IMG/VR virus record: IMGVR_UViG_3300036792_000097
Location: 1-59,760 of that record
Strand: one strand, 5' to 3'
Length of the DNA: 59,760 nt
Origin: a virus
This document shows positions 1 to 32,539 of the stretch, piece by piece. Position 1 is the stretch's first letter; each line of letters begins with the position of its first letter. The notes beneath the pieces were generated by a model. That model did no database searches. It was not told the DNA's origin and worked only from the letters and a program-made list of their open reading frames with translations. The translations under genes were made by a program, and so were the position numbers.

Positions 1-125
1 CCCAGCCACTGAACGAGGGTGCACGCGGTCTCGTCTATGCAGACGGTTCCCTCGTCGTCAGCGATCTTCAGGTCCGTCAGCTCGCCGCCGCAGCGCACGC
101 ACAGCAGCACTCCCTCTAGCTTCAT
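1..125 (-). CDS. HNH-like zinc protein, N-terminal part (runs off base 1)
   Basis: The reading frame starts at ATG 125-123, overlapping the TGA of the primase-helicase (ATGA), and is still open at base 1. The visible 41 residues hold a CVRCGG zinc knuckle and a third Cys. If the window is circular, the next codon is completed by base 59760 and the frame continues in phase into a typical HNH C-terminus (KCDVRCANCH). The joined protein would be about 109 residues with two CxxC pairs. The active-site histidines are not obvious in the N-terminal half, so it may be a degenerate or small HNH nuclease. Confidence 0.6.
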   Translation of the reverse strand, partial: MKLEGVLLCVRCGGELTDLKIADDEGTVCIDETACTLVQWL

Positions 126-2404
126 GCCTCGTACTCTAGCGCAGCAGGGTCAAGGGCCGGCGACGGTGAACTCCCAGGCTCAGGCCGGTCAGGCAGGTCG
201 TACTTGCCCAGCTTGCCCTCTTCCTTGGTCAGCTTGCCCTTGGCCACCATCCGGCGGGCGAAGCTGTTAGCGGCGCTGGCGCTCACGAACAGGTCAGGGT
301 AGGCATTGAACAGGTCCCGTCCGAGTTCTCGGGTACCGAGAGCTAGACGGTTTTCCCTCACCAGGTCCAGCACAGCCAGCTCTTTCCTGCCCATCTCGGA
401 CTCGTCGGTGGTGTCCTCAAGGCTCATGGCGACCTCGGGAGCCCAGTTCCTCAGCTCGGGATACCTCGGGTAGGCAGTGATGCCGCGCTCGGCACCGTCC
501 CCGTCCGCTGGCACCCACAGGTAACCGACCGGCGTTCCCTCGTCAAAATGGCCGCCGCGCGCCTTGGTGAGGGTGAGCATCGAGTAGCCGCTGGTGCGCT
601 TGGAGAACGGGCACATCTTCTCGACCTTGATCACGTAGTCCGCCGCTGATTCCTTGCGCTCGGAACCGAACGTCCCCGCGTCACCCGTCTTGGACATGTG
701 GTCCAGCAGCACGATGTTAGCCCCGGCTTCCGCCACGGGCGTCAGGTACTCGGTGTACACCTGCTCAACAGCGTCGCCGTCATTGGCATTGGTCCCCGGC
801 ATAACCCTGCCCTGGAGCGCGCGGAACGCGTCAACGACTACCAGCACCCGGTGCGTGCCCTGCTCCGATGCCTCTGCCACTACCCGTACCAGTTGCTGCA
901 CGGGAGGGAGCGCTGAGGTATACCGGAGCTGGTTGTCGATGATGTGCGCGCCCACGCCCAGCATGCGCAGCTTGGAGGTGAGCTGGTCGTCCTGGCGCTC
1001 GAAGTCAATCCAGATCACCGTGTTCCCGGCGATCATCTCCTGCGCCGCCCACGCTGCCGTCACCCACGTCTTACCGCTCGACCTGTGGCCGGAGATAACC
1101 GTTACCTTGGCGCGCGCGATAACACTGGAGTACTTGCTGTCCTTGCCCACGATGCGCAGTGTCTCAGGCTCAGGGGGTTCAGGGAGGGAACCAATCTTCC
1201 GGTAGCCGGAAAAGGGAGCGGTAAGCAGCTCCGCTACGTCGGCTTCGGCAAGCTTGCGGATCAGATTGCGCTTTATCTCGTTGGTGAACTCAGGAAATCC
1301 TCGCGTGAGTTCCTTCAGGTAATCATTCCACGACTGGGTGGGCTGCTGCGGTTCGTCAACGTCAAGGGGCTGGGCCGGGAGCGGATTGTTCTGGGCAATG
1401 GTCTCGTAAATGCGCTGCTCGCGGAGCGCCGTCAGTTTCTGCTGCTGCTCGAATGCCTGAGTGGCTTCGCGGGAAATTCCCTGGAGCCTTTCCGGACTGC
1501 CCGCGAGCCCTTCATAAACCGACAGCTCCTGGTCCTCACGGGCAATAGCTGTCGCTGCCTTGGCCTGTGCCTGGCTCCGTACGTGGCGGTCAAAGTCCTC
1601 CCGCGACCACGGCCAGGATGGATCGTCGCTGCGGGAAACACGGAGCCAGTGTGTAAAGATCTCGTCCATGGGTACGCGAGACAGCATCATGTCGAACGCG
1701 AACATCGCCAACTCGGAATCGGACGACAGCGACTCGTCGGGCTGCATCAGCCACCACTGCGGGCCGTCACCGGGTCTGACGTACGAGCCGAGAGAGGGAG
1801 CGGACGGGGGATTTCGCAGGTATTCGGTCCAGCGGGCGGGCAGCTCGGGGATGTCCTTCACGTTCGGCAGCAGGCACGGCTCCCCGTCAGGGTCAAAGCA
1901 CTGGACGGTCCTACCGTTCTTGTGGTTGATGTCGCCTGGTGCCCAGCTAAATCGGTGCCCGGTTCGCAGGATCTCCACGCTGGTCTTGCCGTGGTCGTCG
2001 GCGAACTGCGCGAGCGCCCGGTCGGAGAAGTCAAGGTCAGCCGGCTTGCGGAACAGGTAGCGCCCTGAGGGGTCAGCCTCACCCCGGCTCGTGACTTTGT
2101 AGGTAGGGGGCAGATCGCCCAGCCATTCCTCGGCCCTGTCTATGGTGTCCGCGCCGCGCTTGGCGTCGTAGTGGTCCACGTCGATGATGACCACCTCGGG
2201 CGGCGGCCTGAACCCCAGGCGGTGCGAGCCAGGGGGCTGCGGCACCACGGTGGGGAACGGCGCGTCGTAGCCCGTCAGCCCTTCCATGGGGGAGAAGCCA
2301 CCTGATTGCCGCTGGAGGCACCACACCGGCTGCCAGCCCTTCATCACCAGATCCCTGGCGACGGTCATCAGAAGGTCGCGGGGGGCGACGGGGTGCTGAG
2401 CCAT
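122..2404 (-). CDS. Bifunctional primase-polymerase / replicative helicase
   Basis: This 760-residue protein has two parts. Residues about 1-200 look like a Prim-Pol (AEP) domain: a VIIDVDHYD acidic motif near residue 75 and an EILRTGHRFSW motif near residue 150. Residues about 430-640 are a RepA/DnaB-like RecA-fold ATPase: Walker A GHRSSGKT at 439-446, an IDFER segment near 467 and a Walker B VLVVVDAF near 520-526. The combination is known in phage and plasmid replication proteins that prime and unwind DNA. The gene is transcribed away from the repeat-rich region at 2461-2611. A TACCTT hexamer lies 8 bases before ATG and no clear Shine-Dalgarno is seen, so it may be leaderless. Confidence 0.88.
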   Translation of the reverse strand: MAQHPVAPRDLLMTVARDLVMKGWQPVWCLQRQSGGFSPMEGLTGYDAPFPTVVPQPPGSHRLGFRPPPEVVIIDVDHYDAKRGADTIDRAEEWLGDLPPTYKVTSRGEADPSGRYLFRKPADLDFSDRALAQFADDHGKTSVEILRTGHRFSWAPGDINHKNGRTVQCFDPDGEPCLLPNVKDIPELPARWTEYLRNPPSAPSLGSYVRPGDGPQWWLMQPDESLSSDSELAMFAFDMMLSRVPMDEIFTHWLRVSRSDDPSWPWSREDFDRHVRSQAQAKAATAIAREDQELSVYEGLAGSPERLQGISREATQAFEQQQKLTALREQRIYETIAQNNPLPAQPLDVDEPQQPTQSWNDYLKELTRGFPEFTNEIKRNLIRKLAEADVAELLTAPFSGYRKIGSLPEPPEPETLRIVGKDSKYSSVIARAKVTVISGHRSSGKTWVTAAWAAQEMIAGNTVIWIDFERQDDQLTSKLRMLGVGAHIIDNQLRYTSALPPVQQLVRVVAEASEQGTHRVLVVVDAFRALQGRVMPGTNANDGDAVEQVYTEYLTPVAEAGANIVLLDHMSKTGDAGTFGSERKESAADYVIKVEKMCPFSKRTSGYSMLTLTKARGGHFDEGTPVGYLWVPADGDGAERGITAYPRYPELRNWAPEVAMSLEDTTDESEMGRKELAVLDLVRENRLALGTRELGRDLFNAYPDLFVSASAANSFARRMVAKGKLTKEEGKLGKYDLPDRPEPGSSPSPALDPAALEYEA

Positions 2405-2460
2405 AGAAGATCAAGGTACCACTGTGACTCGCGGGGCTCCAGCAAGGTACTCGAACAGGG

Positions 2461-2611
2461 TGTGTCATATAGGGGTGTGTCAGGCGTGTCATGGTGTGTC
2501 AAAAACCCGGCCGGCCATCCTGTGTCCGTGTGTGTCATACCGCCTTTCTTTAGGAAGGCGGTGACACACGGCACGGTGACACACCCCATGTGCCACGACA
2601 CAGGTGACACA
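2461..2611. repeat. TGTGTCA iteron-like array, candidate origin or operator
   Basis: Ten copies of TGTGTCA or a one-base variant lie in 151 bases between the divergent primase-helicase and polymerase genes. Forward copies begin at 2461, 2476, 2485 (CGTGTCA), 2495, 2521 (TGTGTCC) and 2531. Inverted copies (TGACACA) begin at 2562, 2577, 2596 (CGACACA) and 2605. All forward copies are on the left of a central hairpin and all inverted copies on the right. Position between replication genes suggests a replication origin. A shared operator for both promoters is the main alternative. Confidence 0.75.
2540..2561. other. Central hairpin of the iteron array
   Basis: A 9-bp stem (CCGCCTTTC with GGAAGGCGG, one G-T pair) closes a TTTA loop. 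The innermost TGTGTCA/TGACACA pair flanks it, extending the dyad to 2531-2568. It sits between two divergent genes, not behind one, so it is unlikely to be a simple terminator. Confidence 0.7.
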
Positions 2612-2735
2612 GTAGGGGAGGATTTGGGAGAGCTGGTAGTGTTCTGGCGTGGATCATCCCGAGTGTTTCGAGCGGCTGGTAGCCCTCAACCGGGAGGGCG
2701 CTCTGGTAGACAGGGCGTGCATCAAGGAAGCTGGC

Positions 2736-5610: not shown

Positions 5611-5684
5611 GTCCCCAGGACCCTTGAGGGAGGGGTGGCCGCCCCTAAAGCGGCTTGCTGCGGGTTCGAAACCCGTTGGGGACT
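5611..5684 (+). tRNA. tRNA-like gene, anticodon CUA (candidate amber suppressor)
   Basis: All four stems form. The acceptor GTCCCCA/TGGGGAC has 7 pairs, the D stem ACCC/GGGT 4, the anticodon stem GCCGC/GCGGC 5 and the T stem GCGGG/CCCGT 5, with a TTCGAAA loop and a 5-nt variable loop. The anticodon loop is CCCTAAA, so the anticodon (5645-5647) is CUA, which reads UAG. Odd points are C at position 33 instead of U, G at 8, A at 10 and T at 14, and CCA is not encoded. It could be a working suppressor, a degenerate tRNA or a decoy. The PTH2-like gene with an in-frame UAG just upstream supports suppression. Confidence 0.62.
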
Positions 5685-5686
5685 CT

Positions 5687-14242: not shown

Positions 14243-14535
14243 CAGGCTTCCCTCTTGGTGATCAGGTAGACGCCGGGCTCGATCGGCTTGTCGGTGTCGA
14301 ACAGCTCGATAGTCTCCGCGCCCCGGTCCTCGATGTCCCAGTACTCACCTGTGTGGTGCAGGAGGATGTTCGCGGGGTAGCTCGCGGTCTTCCCTATGAC
14401 GGTGATGTTGCCGACTTCGTAACTCTGACGGAACAGGCGGTTGGCGGCGCGGGCGAACGGGCAGTTACGCGCGCTGGTCCGTGTCGCGCCCTGGATGTCT
14501 TCCGCTGTGAGCTTGAGCATCTTGGTCTCGGGCAT
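14242..14535 (-). CDS. Hypothetical 97-residue protein
   Basis: Located directly downstream of Ku, sharing the last base of its stop codon. The sequence suggests a small globular domain (SYEVGNITVIGKTASY, IEPGVYLITK). No family is recognised. Its position makes it a possible Ku partner. Confidence 0.65.
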   Translation of the reverse strand: MPETKMLKLTAEDIQGATRTSARNCPFARAANRLFRQSYEVGNITVIGKTASYPANILLHHTGEYWDIEDRGAETIELFDTDKPIEPGVYLITKREA

Positions 14536-15356
14536 CAGGCGGCCCTTCCTCTCGGTGTGCGCTTGCGGGTGTCGGTGGTGCCCTTCTTGGCCTCGACTGC
14601 GGCCTTGAGGACGGCGGTCAGGTCAGCGGGCATGCCGCGCGGGGGAGCGCCCTCGGGTGCGTCCTTGGCCGCGATGACCTGCCCGGTCTCGATCTTGGCC
14701 TGGATGACTTCCATCACGGCCTCGCGCGAGTGATCGGTGTGCTGGCTGTGGTCGTACTTACCGTCCATGGTGGCGATCAGCTTCGCCGCCAGTGAGTGCT
14801 CGGCGTCGCTCGCGGTGTCGGCCGGGGCGGCGAAGTCAGGCCGGATCATGTCCGAGTCCCACTCCAGCGCCTCAAGGGCCAGGTACCCGTCGTGCGGGCG
14901 CAGCACGGCCACGGCCTCACGGTCGCGGATGGCGAAGGTGACGACGGCGACCTTGCCGGTCTCGTTCAGGATCTGCGCGAGCAGGGCGTAGGTCTTCTCG
15001 CCGCCGATGTCGGGCTGGACCCAGTAGGTCTTCTTCACGGCCATCGGGGGGATGTTCGACTCTTCGGTGAACATGAGCACGGTGGCTACCCGGCTCTTGG
15101 GCCCGTACACGCGCTCGAAGTCCGCACGGTCCATGAGCACGGTCGAGCCGTCAGGCGCGGCGTAGCCCTTGGACATGTCGTTCCAGTTGATTTCCTTGCC
15201 GTCGTCTTCGGTCACGCGGGTGAACTTGACGCGGGCACCGTCCGTCTTGCGGACCCAGTGCAGCTCCAGGGAGTTGTCCTTGACGGTGCTCCCGAGCTTG
15301 ACTGGCATGCTGAGCCCCGCGATCACTTGAATCGCGCCGGACCAGATTGATCTCAT
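14535..15356 (-). CDS. ku: Ku protein (bacterial NHEJ family)
   Basis: The 273-residue protein follows bacterial Ku from the first residue. It has MRSIWSGAIQVIAGLSMPVKL, ELHWVRKTDGARVKF, DMSKGYAAPDGSTVLM and then GGEKTYALLAQILNETGKVA and REAVAVLRPHDGYLALEAL. This covers the ring-forming Ku core. A Lys/Arg-rich tail ends in RKRTPRGRAA. Bacterial Ku binds double-strand ends and recruits LigD. A few mycobacteriophages (Corndog, Omega) carry Ku for end joining at infection. No LigD-like ligase was seen here, so host LigD would be needed. AGGAGA lies seven bases before ATG. The gene is embedded in a run of tiny unknown genes. Confidence 0.88.
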   Translation of the reverse strand: MRSIWSGAIQVIAGLSMPVKLGSTVKDNSLELHWVRKTDGARVKFTRVTEDDGKEINWNDMSKGYAAPDGSTVLMDRADFERVYGPKSRVATVLMFTEESNIPPMAVKKTYWVQPDIGGEKTYALLAQILNETGKVAVVTFAIRDREAVAVLRPHDGYLALEALEWDSDMIRPDFAAPADTASDAEHSLAAKLIATMDGKYDHSQHTDHSREAVMEVIQAKIETGQVIAAKDAPEGAPPRGMPADLTAVLKAAVEAKKGTTDTRKRTPRGRAA

Positions 15357-28910: not shown

Positions 28911-29060
28911 CTAGCTGTAGGTGCGGGTGAACGTTCCGTTGGCGAGCTTGCGAACCTTGCACGGTCGGACGGTTGCGCCGTTGGCGTATGCCCGGCCGGC
29001 AACGTCCGCTGAATTGGTGAAGAACAGTCCGTCATTGGTCCGGATTTCGAATCCACGCAT
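28911..29060 (-). CDS. Hypothetical 49-residue protein
   Basis: Small beta-rich basic peptide (FEIRTNDGLFFTNSADVAG, KVRKLANGTFTRTY). No family is recognised. Confidence 0.5.
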   Translation of the reverse strand: MRGFEIRTNDGLFFTNSADVAGRAYANGATVRPCKVRKLANGTFTRTYS

Positions 29061-29062
29061 GG

Positions 29063-29161
29063 TCAGTCACCGTCCAAATCGGATCGCGAGTTGAGTTGAA
29101 GCGCTAGGCAGGAATAGGCCACATAGACCCGTTGGATGATCTCGTTTAGCCGGCTGCGCAT
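29063..29161 (-). CDS. Hypothetical 32-residue peptide
   Basis: Helical (RSRLNEIIQRVYVAYSCLAL). It lies in the regular two-base-gap chain of genes, which is the main support. Confidence 0.4.
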   Translation of the reverse strand: MRSRLNEIIQRVYVAYSCLALQLNSRSDLDGD

Positions 29162-29163
29162 GG

Positions 29164-29307
29164 TCAGTAGCCGCGTTGTCCGGCGTACGCCGGGTGAGTG
29201 CTTGGGAGGTCTGACCAGAACACATAGTAGGCATTCGCGTTGTCGCGATCCCACATGACGTTAGAGGAATGTGTGCAGGTGATTCCCCATGGGGTTTCGA
29301 TGATCAT
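29164..29307 (-). CDS. Hypothetical 47-residue protein
   Basis: Aromatic-rich (IETPWGITCTHSSNVMWD, NAYYVFWSDLP). No family is recognised. Confidence 0.5.
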   Translation of the reverse strand: MIIETPWGITCTHSSNVMWDRDNANAYYVFWSDLPSTHPAYAGQRGY

Positions 29308-29309
29308 GG

Positions 29310-29624
29310 TCAGTACCTCACCTTGAATAGTGAAGTGGCCGCGCTGAATTCACGCGCGCCGAATTGGTAGCCGGCATGGCTGATTGTGGCACCATGCGCG
29401 AACGCGTGGCCGAATTTCTCGGCATCCACCATTGCGTGAATGGTTTCCGGCGACGCGTCAACTGTCGTCGTGACCTGCTGTGGCGTAAGCGAGTCATGCA
29501 CTGTAACCACGCTCCCGTGACCTGTAGTAACTGGAGATTCCGCCACGCCGCAATTGCATGTTCGTGTTTTGCGCTCCCCATGTGTTGCGATTGCCAGCGT
29601 TGCCAGGGTTATGCGTTGGCGCAT
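29310..29624 (-). CDS. Hypothetical protein, first gene of the leftward block
   Basis: Open from ATG 29624 (104 residues), but the N-terminal 40 residues look less protein-like and a later start is possible. The C-terminal part reads AEKFGHAFAHGATISHAGYQ. A TACACT hexamer near 29660 on the minus strand is a promoter candidate for the whole block. Confidence 0.45.
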   Translation of the reverse strand: MRQRITLATLAIATHGERKTRTCNCGVAESPVTTGHGSVVTVHDSLTPQQVTTTVDASPETIHAMVDAEKFGHAFAHGATISHAGYQFGAREFSAATSLFKVRY

Positions 29625-30088
29625 TGCTGACTACAGGTTGCGACGTACGGTCAGTGTAGTGGTGCTTTTCGGCGCGCGAACGCGTCCGATTGCGAGGTGA
29701 ACGCATTAGCGTTTGCTCCGTTCTAGCATTGACGATTTATGCGCATGGCGTCCGTTATCAGCGGTTATGACTTATGTACCGATAGCGTAGCGATTCATGC
29801 GCATTAGTGCTTTCGGGTGATTCTGCCTCACTTGCCTACGTCTATTAGCTTCCAAAGCAATCCGCTGTGTCGTGCCATTAAGCACAATGCAGACTAATCA
29901 CTGAAGATTGCCCATTGTGCGGACTGTCACTGTATCGCGAATCGCTCATTAGCTTACGTATCCATTGCCGAAAGCGATGACTTTCTCTATTTAAACGTCG
30001 GAGAATTACAAGAGCGACAACGAAATTCGCTAGGCGAGACATCTGTCACTAATAGGCTGCTAACCTACCGTTTACCGTCTGCTAAATC

Positions 30089-30144
30089 CGCGTGCACAAT
30101 GTTGGATTGATCGCTATTCGCGTGCACAATGTCCAATTGATCGC
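30089..30144. repeat. 26-bp imperfect tandem repeat with GCACAATG box
   Basis: Two 26-base units begin at 30089 and 30119 (period 30). They differ at three adjacent bases (TGG versus CCA). Each holds GCACAATG. The same word occurs at 29882-29889 and inverted at 29913-29920, giving four copies in 250 bases. It is an origin- or operator-like arrangement. Confidence 0.6.
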
Positions 30145-30750
30145 AGCATACAGACGGTTGTGATGTGTCGTTCTGCCTAGCTACATTGACTGATTCCGGC
30201 TAGTCAATACGCCTCACACGTAATCCGCTTTCGCGCCGAATCGGTCTATCCCCTACCCGCGATATCTCTCACTATTGCCCATAATCATTAGGTGGTGCGC
30301 ACCCAACTAGGGAATCTGTTTCACTAGACGTAATCGGTGCCATGGCACTAGCTAGCGTTGCAGACGACTCAACAGCTACCCTTAGGCATTCTGTAGGTTA
30401 TCCCGTGTTCGCATACGTATGTCGATATTGCACGTCGCCCACGCGACTTTCGCCACGTCGTCGGCCATCACTAGCCTAGAAATTCGCGCGTATGCGCCAT
30501 GGCGCAAACCATTCGAATCGCTAGGCACTGTCGTGCCCCACAGCAAAGATATTCGCAAGCCACATGATCCGCCGGGACGCCGGCGACCGCTCCGCTTGCC
30601 TATCTGAATTTCAACTACAACCGCAACGCTACGCCTACCCAAAGTCGTACAATCTCGGCAAATCGGACGAACTAGGACACTGATTCGGACATTTCGTGAC
30701 AAAACTTTCAATAACTTTCCGGTTTGCTATCTTGTGTCCTAGTTTGTCCT

Positions 30751-30765
30751 GTGAACTGGCTTCAC
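30751..30765. promoter_or_regulatory. GTGAA-N5-TTCAC palindrome
   Basis: GTGAACTGGCTTCAC, flanked by T and A. A perfect member of the repeated late-region palindrome, here in the divergent control region. Confidence 0.65.
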
Positions 30766-30853
30766 ACTGCGCATGCGTACGCGACACGTGCACGCGCGCG
30801 CGTAGGCTTGCAAGCTCGCCAGAATGGTGTCTGTACGCGGCTAGCAGGTAGCT

Positions 30854-30868
30854 GTGAGGCTAGTTCAC
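30854..30868. promoter_or_regulatory. GTGAG-N5-TTCAC palindrome
   Basis: One-mismatch member of the family. Its outer arms extend to AGCTGTGA / TCACAGCT. It lies 103 bases from the copy at 30751. Confidence 0.55.
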
Positions 30869-30893
30869 AGCTATTAGGCAGAATCACCCGCCG

Positions 30894-30939
30894 GCGCTAG
30901 CTAGCGCGTTAGAATGCCGCTCTAAGTTACTCGCGAGTA
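30894..30939. repeat. Cluster of perfect palindromes
   Basis: GCGCTAGCTAGCGC (14 bp, 30894-30907) and TACTCGCGAGTA (12 bp, 30928-30939) are perfect palindromes within 46 bases, with a GC-alternating stretch just upstream. They may be protein-binding sites or extruding cruciforms. Confidence 0.55.
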
Positions 30940-31369
30940 GCTAGCGGCCGGGAATTCGGACATTTCGGTGCATGTCCTACTAAATGATGATAAAGCCTAT
31001 ATAATCGTAGATTAGTACGATATAAGTAGCGCTAGGCGACATATCACGATATGTCCGTTTCCAGTGCAGCTAGCGCGCGGATACGTGCTCCGTACAAACG
31101 GACATTCCAGACTAGTGTCTGTACGGTCCACACAGCGATTCTGAGAGACTTTCGGGCCCGACCCAAGCAATCACCCGCGCCGATCGTTTCGGAGATTTCG
31201 ACCGATTTGTCCCTGTACAATGTTATGCCTGCTCAGCGCGCTTATTCGTATGTACGCTTGCTAGACCAATCGTGTTCGATGATTCTGTGTACGTACATTC
31301 GAATATACGTGTCTGCCAGCAACGCCGTTACTGTGTAGTGCATACGCGTATACGACCTGGTTCACTACC

Positions 31370-31720
31370 AGCCAGTAACATACAGTGCACATATCGTTGT
31401 ATATGCGCACATATACGTACATACACATACATGTGTGTATATACCACCACACACAGTGCACATACAGCAATGTCGTACTATAGCAGTACATACACATACA
31501 TACAGTGCACATACGTACATGTGTGTACATACCACTGTGTATACGTACATACCACCACATACAGTGCCATACATACCATTACCACCACACACTATGACAT
31601 ATGCATACATACCATCATGTATGTGTACATACCATCACATGTGTGTACATGTGCATCATTACCACCACACACCATGACATACAGGCACATACGTGCACAT
31701 GCCATAGCATACAGGCACAT
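31370..31720. repeat. Alternating purine-pyrimidine low-complexity tract
   Basis: The tract is built from ACATAC, GTGTGTACAT and ACCACCACA words, with a TACAGTGCACATA-like unit near 31381, 31454, 31501 and 31561. Long stretches alternate purine and pyrimidine, favouring Z-DNA. G is scarce on the plus strand from here to about 31970. No protein is likely to be encoded. Confidence 0.65.
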
Positions 31721-32029
31721 AGCAGGCAATCCAGGCATCGGTTGCAATCCCTGGCACAATGGCACAATCCACCGCAAGCCATGCCAATCCACCCAGCCAT
31801 GGACAATCCGGACATTGCCAGCCCACCCCACCACTGCCTGCATTCTAGAATCAATTCCAGAATCGCATTCCACCACCCAGGCATTTCTAGAATTCCATTC
31901 CACCATTCCACCGCAATTCTAGAATCGCATTCCACCACCCCGCCGCAATCCGGACATTTCATAATTTAACCCTCTTTTTTATGACACGTAACGCAGGGGA
32001 CGACCTGGAGACCGAATTCTCTCCCCGAC

Positions 32030-32539
32030 GTGTTTGACCCGTCGATGTCGAAATGCCCGATCACGAACAAAACTTCGAAAAATCTCGTGACCTGCGGCGA
32101 CTGTGAGCTGAGTACACAACGGTCGGCCCGTTTTTGCTGGGATCGCTTCAGCAGACGTGGTATCGTCGCGTTTGTGGCGGATTGGTACGTGAACTGCGCT
32201 GGCGGGTGCGGAAACCTCCTGAAAATGGGCACCCGGCGCTTCGAGCCGCCTGTGTGCCTGGAGTGCCGACGCCGCAGGGCTGTGCTTCTGTGTGGCTGGT
32301 GCAACATGCCGTTCCGTTCTCGGAGCCGTAGCCTGACGGCGCAGTACTGCTGCCGGAGCCATGCTATGCGCGGGATCTGGCTCGGTAGGCGGTTTTTCGG
32401 CGAAACGGAATTAGTTAGTTCCCAGAAGTGTTGGAAGGTACAAGCCAACTTCCAACGGTTTGGCGAAGTTGTTGGAAGTTCTGAGGAGGTGCAGTATGGA
32501 GTGCTCGGAGGAAGGCTGCGTCGAGGTCAGGGACGATGA
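32030..32539 (+). CDS. Cys-rich zinc-finger protein, up to 169 residues
   Basis: Several Cys pairs (CGDC, CLEC, CGWC and QYCCRSH) form two or three zinc ribbons. The middle CGWCNMPFRSRSRSLTAQYC resembles the zinc-ribbon in small phage HNH or regulatory proteins. The start is uncertain (GTG 32030 or ATG 32045) and no ribosome site is visible. The 3' end overlaps the next gene by 44 bases. As first gene of the late block it may be a regulator. Confidence 0.55.
   Translation: MFDPSMSKCPITNKTSKNLVTCGDCELSTQRSARFCWDRFSRRGIVAFVADWYVNCAGGCGNLLKMGTRRFEPPVCLECRRRRAVLLCGWCNMPFRSRSRSLTAQYCCRSHAMRGIWLGRRFFGETELVSSQKCWKVQANFQRFGEVVGSSEEVQYGVLGGRLRRGQGR
32431..32478. promoter_or_regulatory. TTGGAAG repeats upstream of gene at 32496
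   Basis: TTGGAAG at 32431 and 32472 and its inverse CTTCCAA at 32449 lie just before the start at 32496. Possible operator, inside the end of the preceding frame. Confidence 0.4.

Follow-up and report, generated by a model that had tools for sequence, protein, structure and literature searches.

The 244-bp gap (2405-2648) that separates the divergent primase-helicase and DNA polymerase genes of a 59,760-base virus record, analysed here as a whole and referred to as the window, contains an array of short repeats that probably serves as a replication origin of the iteron type, or as one of a pair of origin sites, bound by the C-terminal winged helix of the phage's own primase-helicase. The array is non-random, it recurs in related phages with different repeat words, and at one or two loci the word diverges together with the C-terminal domain of the primase-helicase.

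The repeat array and its surroundings

Genes for terminase, portal, head protein and Ku, together with actinobacterial DUF domains, point to an actinophage-like tailed virus as the source of the window, which comes from an uncultured soil phage and is probably a fragment of a larger genome; its terminase relatives include contigs of 84-122 kb and its polymerase relatives reach up to 190 kb. These relatives were recovered via the terminase and then via a polymerase profile. Scans of viral contigs for close relatives with the window primase or polymerase alone returned no matches, as did profile scans of bacterial and archaeal genomes, and a raw scan of viral contigs for pairs of TGTGTCA was dropped as a relative finder, being too unspecific. 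Besides the gene for a Ku-like DNA end-binding protein (14535-15356), the window carries a tRNA-Pyl-like gene with a CTA anticodon (5611-5685; ARAGORN), possibly an amber-reading tRNA, and an AT-rich, gene-poor stretch (29000-32500; GC 0.41-0.53) with opposing gene blocks on either side, in which TACATAC repeats (31378-31714) and other tandem repeats are found.

The preliminary description had placed the array between a primase-helicase and a DNA polymerase, which Pfam bears out (Table 1); it did not state that the two genes are divergent. The Prim-Pol domain forms the N-terminal part of the primase-helicase. In the window and in G027, G026, G019, G020, G012 and G025, a TANNNT hexamer precedes the polymerase start codon by 6-7 nt, which suggests a conserved, putatively leaderless promoter at the polymerase gene in the window and these six relatives. 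In G027, the family-A motif of the polymerase gene (L156:5950-9060) is interrupted between QQF and SRQGG by an intein-like insertion.

The ten TGTGTCA-like repeats reported earlier, six of them forward and four inverted, are all present: seven exact (2461, 2476, 2495 and 2531 on the plus strand; 2562, 2577 and 2605 on the minus strand) and three with one mismatch (CGTGTCA at 2485 and TGTGTCC at 2521, plus strand; TGTGTCG at 2597, minus strand). The seven copies of the most frequent 7-mer in the gap compare with a mean of 2.1 and a maximum of 3 in dinucleotide shuffles (0/300 shuffles). No further TGTGTCA clusters were found elsewhere in the 59.8-kb window, and an unbiased k-mer cluster scan of the whole window returned two clusters, the array and TACATAC at 31.4-31.7 kb; the same scan on a Markov control of the window returned none. 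The separation of forward copies to the left and inverted copies to the right, described as strict, holds in the window (P about 0.01 under random ordering) but not as a general rule, since one inverted copy falls within the left half of the array in each of G019 and G020.

The 9-bp stem with a TTTA loop was also found as described, with a T.G pair in addition to nine Watson-Crick pairs. By itself the stem is modestly unusual (matched by 5/200 base shuffles), and the hairpin was rejected as the key element, since it barely exceeds chance expectation and an AT-rich centre replaces it in Santhid-type arrays. The gap has a GC content of 0.57 versus 0.63 overall and its A/T runs are short; no long AT-rich unwinding element was seen in the array region of the window, the AT-rich centre being clearer in G012 and the Santhid group.

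Table 1. Features of the window and of the repeat arrays in related genomes
Feature	Position	Strand	Remarks
Prim-Pol primase and AAA_25 (RecA-like) helicase, 760 aa, proposed initiator	122..2404	-	PF09250 E 2e-8, PF13481 E 4e-8; phrog_1156 DNA primase
C-terminal domain, residues about 661-760, proposed iteron reader	122..424	-	predicted winged-helix core about residues 662-737
Forward iteron 1, GTGTGTCA	2460..2467	+	exact word
Forward iteron 2, GTGTGTCA	2475..2482	+	exact word
Forward iteron 3, degenerate, GCGTGTCA	2484..2491	+	one mismatch
Forward iteron 4, GTGTGTCA	2494..2501	+	exact word
Forward iteron 5, degenerate, CTGTGTCC	2520..2527	+	one mismatch
Forward iteron 6, GTGTGTCA	2530..2537	+	exact word
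Central hairpin ACCGCCTTTC-TTTA-GGAAGGCGGT	2539..2562	.	nine Watson-Crick pairs and one T.G, loop TTTA
Inverted iteron 1, TGACACAC	2562..2569	-	exact word
Inverted iteron 2, TGACACAC	2577..2584	-	exact word
Inverted iteron 3, degenerate, CGACACAG	2596..2603	-	one mismatch
Inverted iteron 4, TGACACAG	2605..2612	-	exact word
Probable -10 element TAGTGT, leaderless polymerase promoter	2637..2642	+	6 nt before GTG; predicted from sequence only
Family-A DNA polymerase (DNA_pol_A), 784 aa	2649..5003	+	PF00476 E 6e-29
G019 arrays, word GGTGTGC	87,485 and 164,858-164,994
G020 arrays, word TGGGTCA	83,534 and 149,172-149,426
Exact array word, L160/G019			GTGTGCT
Exact array word, L161/G020			TGGGTCA
Exact array word, L159/G026			GGGGTCA
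Exact array word, G012			ACTGTCA
Exact array word, L162/G021			TGGAGGG
Exact array word, L164/G022 and L168/G024			TGAAGGG

Arrays in relatives and in cultured actinophages

The region between helicase and polymerase was examined in 12 relatives, giving 13 genomes with the window. A significant exact-word array was detected there in eight of the 13, the window included (each 0/300 shuffles), and the words differ in most of these eight genomes, L164 and L168 sharing one. The conservation in relatives proposed earlier as a check was found in part: arrays occupy the same place in 7/12 relatives, mostly with different words, and the other five (L156/G027, L163/G025, L165/G023, G006 and G010) have no clear exact-word array. 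Among the latter is G027, the closest relative with the divergent layout of the window, which has a hairpin and two TGTGTC sites and no significant array.

The genes that flank the array are divergent in the window and G027 and co-directional in G019 and G020. In three relatives the array lies inside a single open frame (L162:2110-6897 in G021, L164:2065-7731 in G022 and L168:2113-7968 in G024; 1595, 1888 and 1951 aa), which in G021 is a fusion of Prim-Pol, a DUF5906 helicase-like domain and a family-A polymerase with the array in the coding linker; G006 likewise has DUF5906 instead of AAA_25. That the array persists within coding sequence speaks for a function at the DNA level that is not promoter control.

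Two further repeat clusters were seen in this set of genomes. A weak second cluster of G012 (CACTGAC/TGTCACT; L140:3287-3390, about 62.1-62.3 kb) lies in an AT-rich gap and has three CTGTCA copies in common with the polymerase-adjacent array, and the ends of the G025 contig (1-235 and 118613-118922) carry related short tandem repeats, possibly terminal repeats or an assembly effect.

Arrays were also found in cultured actinophages. Santhid, Jojo24, Reyja, Tarzan, Hibiscus, TinyDot and BetterKatz (Gordonia) and P3.1 (Nocardia) resemble the window in having an array of 6-14 iterons in both orientations beside the Prim-Pol gene, at the same position after that gene in P3.1; unlike in the window, the array is downstream of the primase and there is no divergent gap, and the Santhid and Tarzan groups have an AT-rich centre where the window has its hairpin. 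No origin is annotated in these array stretches, and the hypothetical proteins annotated as overlapping the array (Santhid gp52, Jojo24 gp54, Tarzan gp55 and similar) may not be genes. In the Prim-Pol neighbourhoods of Jflix2, REQ1, P1201 and Dylan, no array with four or more exact 7-mers was seen beside the gene.

The repeat word and the C-terminal domain diverge together

The primase-helicases of G019 and G020 are 88-100% identical per 50-residue block up to residue 649 and then only 52% and 36%, the divergent segment being the C-terminal ~100 residues. At the DNA level, identity is ~90% in both flanks and about 50% across roughly 490 bp that comprise the C-terminus and the array. When 79 ortholog pairs of these genomes (minimum 150 columns) are ranked by their local drop in identity, this one comes third, after two in long proteins near 50-69 kb that, judged by their size and position, are probably tail proteins.

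Both genomes have a second, syntenic array, 66-77 kb from the first and with the same genome-specific word (Table 1), and neither GGTGTGC nor TGGGTCA clusters in the other genome of the pair. Between the switched repeats, the second arrays have GGTAAAACCGCAGGTCAGG in common. The element GCAGGTCA was noted in or near the centre of arrays with differing words, namely the second arrays of G019 and G020 and those of G021, G022, G024 and the Santhid and Tarzan groups; neither the window array nor the first arrays of G019 and G020 contain it.

A second case is provided by the Gordonia phages. In Santhid, Jojo24 and Reyja, a CCTGGAA array follows just after the Prim-Pol gene and the C-termini are 93-100% identical, whereas in Tarzan and Hibiscus the word is CGTGGACA and Prim-Pol is 85-100% identical to that of Santhid over residues 1-718 and 61-62% over 719-772. 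Santhid-type and Tarzan-type DNAs are about 95% identical in both flanks and 50-78% across the C-terminus and array, the array centre being partly conserved between the two groups (TTAGAATATCTAACTA in most). In the control pair, BetterKatz and Parada, the word is the same and so is the C-terminus.

Since the C-terminal domain adjoins the first array in G019/G020 and in the Gordonia pair, a single recombination event could move both. What argues against such hitch-hiking is the second array, and it does so in one pair only: because both loci switch their word, a trans-acting reader of both explains the data better than local recombination. The two-locus switch is a single event in a single pair and not a rule.

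The C-terminal domain of the proposed initiator

AlphaFold2 predicts a three-helix winged helix (core pLDDT 80-90) for the C-terminal fragment of the window protein; a model of the full-length protein was discarded (mean pLDDT 52). The top VIA-align rows for the fragment are winged-helix domains of many kinds (Z about 8-9), and for this reason only a fold class is assigned to the model. Foldseek with the fragment model gave no match at E below 0.05, a Pfam search of the fragment returned no family, and PDB sequences gave no match to a whole-protein profile. This predicted fold, and the divergence of the homologous C-terminal segment along with the repeat word, make the domain the probable reader of the repeats.

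Origin function and alternative explanations

By analogy with P4 alpha, pRN1, SaPI Rep, Cch2 and PLE RepA, the C-terminal winged helix of the Prim-Pol/helicase would bind the TGTGTCA iterons directly, and the opposed half-arrays would each load or position one helicase, so that two helicases stand back to back and flank the central element. The DNA would then open between the two half-arrays, the Prim-Pol domain would prime and the adjacent family-A polymerase would extend, with bidirectional firing and divergent forks as the expected outcome. GC skew, suggested earlier as a check, neither supports nor refutes an origin, since GC3 and AT3 skew track the gene strand to the left and right of the arrays and show no switch of their own there. 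Skew minima near the arrays in 5-kb tables were dropped as an origin sign, as they follow gene orientation once genes are split by strand.

P4 requires two iteron sites, ori and crr. Two separate iteron loci are also present in G019 and G020, the window fragment having one and G012 the weak second cluster described above. With one array only in the fragment, the window array could be an accessory site like crr instead of the start site, the start being a second array outside the 59.8 kb. Such a role for the first, hairpin-type array is a sub-case that overlaps with the origin model and that we regard as rather unlikely. The distribution of GCAGGTCA, found in the second arrays and in several arrays of other phages and lacking in first arrays and the window, would fit it. 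On the other hand, the first array has the symmetric two-arm form expected for a bidirectional start and the second is nearly one-directional, most other relatives have a single array, beside the replication genes, and the fragment itself holds no second array.

The preliminary description had left open a choice between a replication origin and a bidirectional operator. An operator would mean that the primase-helicase or another protein autoregulates the divergent primase and polymerase promoters, the array having no role in initiation. The divergent genes of the window and G027, the probable polymerase promoter that abuts the window array and the position of the second G019 array directly upstream of a small gene are compatible with this, and for the window the promoter leaves room for an operator role. 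However, like arrays lie between co-directional genes in G019/G020 and, in Gordonia phages, downstream of the primase gene, 10-14 copies exceed a typical operator, and no promoter is needed within the continuous coding frames of G021, G022 and G024. Because of this embedding in three relatives, the operator is the weaker, though compatible, reading, and a purely regulatory array is unlikely; the origin is the better half of the earlier choice, given the word that changes with the C-terminal domain and the varied gene layouts. Autoregulation and origin function can coexist in the same array.

It is more improbable still that the repeats are read by a different protein, from the host or a separate phage DNA-binding protein, as in stoperators or partition sites, with the divergence of the primase C-terminus coincidental or linked. 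The C-terminal domain neighbours the first array in both divergent pairs, and local recombination could link them, but the same restricted divergence is seen in two independent pairs, pairs with identical words keep identical C-termini, and the array 66-77 kb away switches too. Moreover, no other large local divergence in the 79 ortholog pairs, for which gene annotation is non-exhaustive, indicates another regulator. Finally, functionless chance or low-complexity repeats deserve almost no credence: the words are short and G+T-rich and some large GC-rich relatives have many coding k-mer clusters, but the shuffles in eight genomes, the two clusters in the whole window with none in its Markov control and an architecture that recurs while the word changes refute this explanation.

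Comparison with known systems

The components and the logic of the proposed origin are already known from satellites, islands and plasmids. As far as our limited searches of the open-access literature reach, the new points are that they apply to this phage group, that two loci switch together and that arrays are embedded in a replicase coding frame; these searches found no described origin for Prim-Pol phages, the cultured Gordonia terrae phages included. The array and the C-terminal domain offer a concrete, testable candidate origin and initiator-specificity domain for such phages, cultured ones among them, and the paired switch of word and DNA-binding domain amounts to a swap experiment made by nature, which points to residues to test. 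It suggests that phage origins diversify in the manner of those of plasmids and satellites, which would keep related phages or parasites from borrowing each other's replication machinery. More tentatively, large actinophages may have a module for replication specificity that is divided between two distant loci and consists of the initiator winged helix and two arrays lying about 70 kb from each other. The word of the whole module would switch at once between near-identical phages, the pressure to do so presumably coming from satellites, from nucleases that target origins or from rivals in co-infection.

In pRN1 ORF904 and phage BIP-1, an archaeo-eukaryotic primase, a helicase and a C-terminal winged helix are combined and the origin is downstream of the gene, with a stem-loop of variable sequence between conserved flanks (PMC4234260). 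The origin of pRN1 has been described as an iteron-free stem-loop of 100 nt, whereas in the window iterons dominate and the stem has 10 pairs with a 4-nt loop; the window array has no long (~100 nt) stem-loop of the pRN1 type. The C-terminal domain of SaPI Rep binds iterons directly downstream of rep, and SCCmec Cch2 does likewise (PMC7581432). These self-loading initiator helicases, with a C-terminal domain that binds iterons next to their own gene, resemble the window protein, for which binding is predicted, but they belong to staphylococcal islands with separate or different primases.

Covariation of an initiator DNA-binding domain with its iterons, the remainder of the protein being conserved, is known from RepA of the Vibrio cholerae PLE, where cognate pairs work as a module that can be exchanged and swaps prove cognate specificity (PMC8263062); here the pairing is known from sequence comparison. 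PLE RepA_N belongs to an unrelated family of initiators; its binding domain is N-terminal, the origin is single and the iterons are about 30 bp long. Like the window protein, whose fold comes from the fragment model, P4 alpha has primase, helicase and C-terminal winged helix in one polypeptide, and its winged helix binds origin repeats (PMC4234260). P4 alpha combines a Toprim primase with an SF3 helicase, whereas the window protein combines an archaeo-eukaryotic Prim-Pol with a RecA-like AAA_25 domain, and what the phages described here have in addition to P4 is the switching of the repeat word between near-identical genomes.
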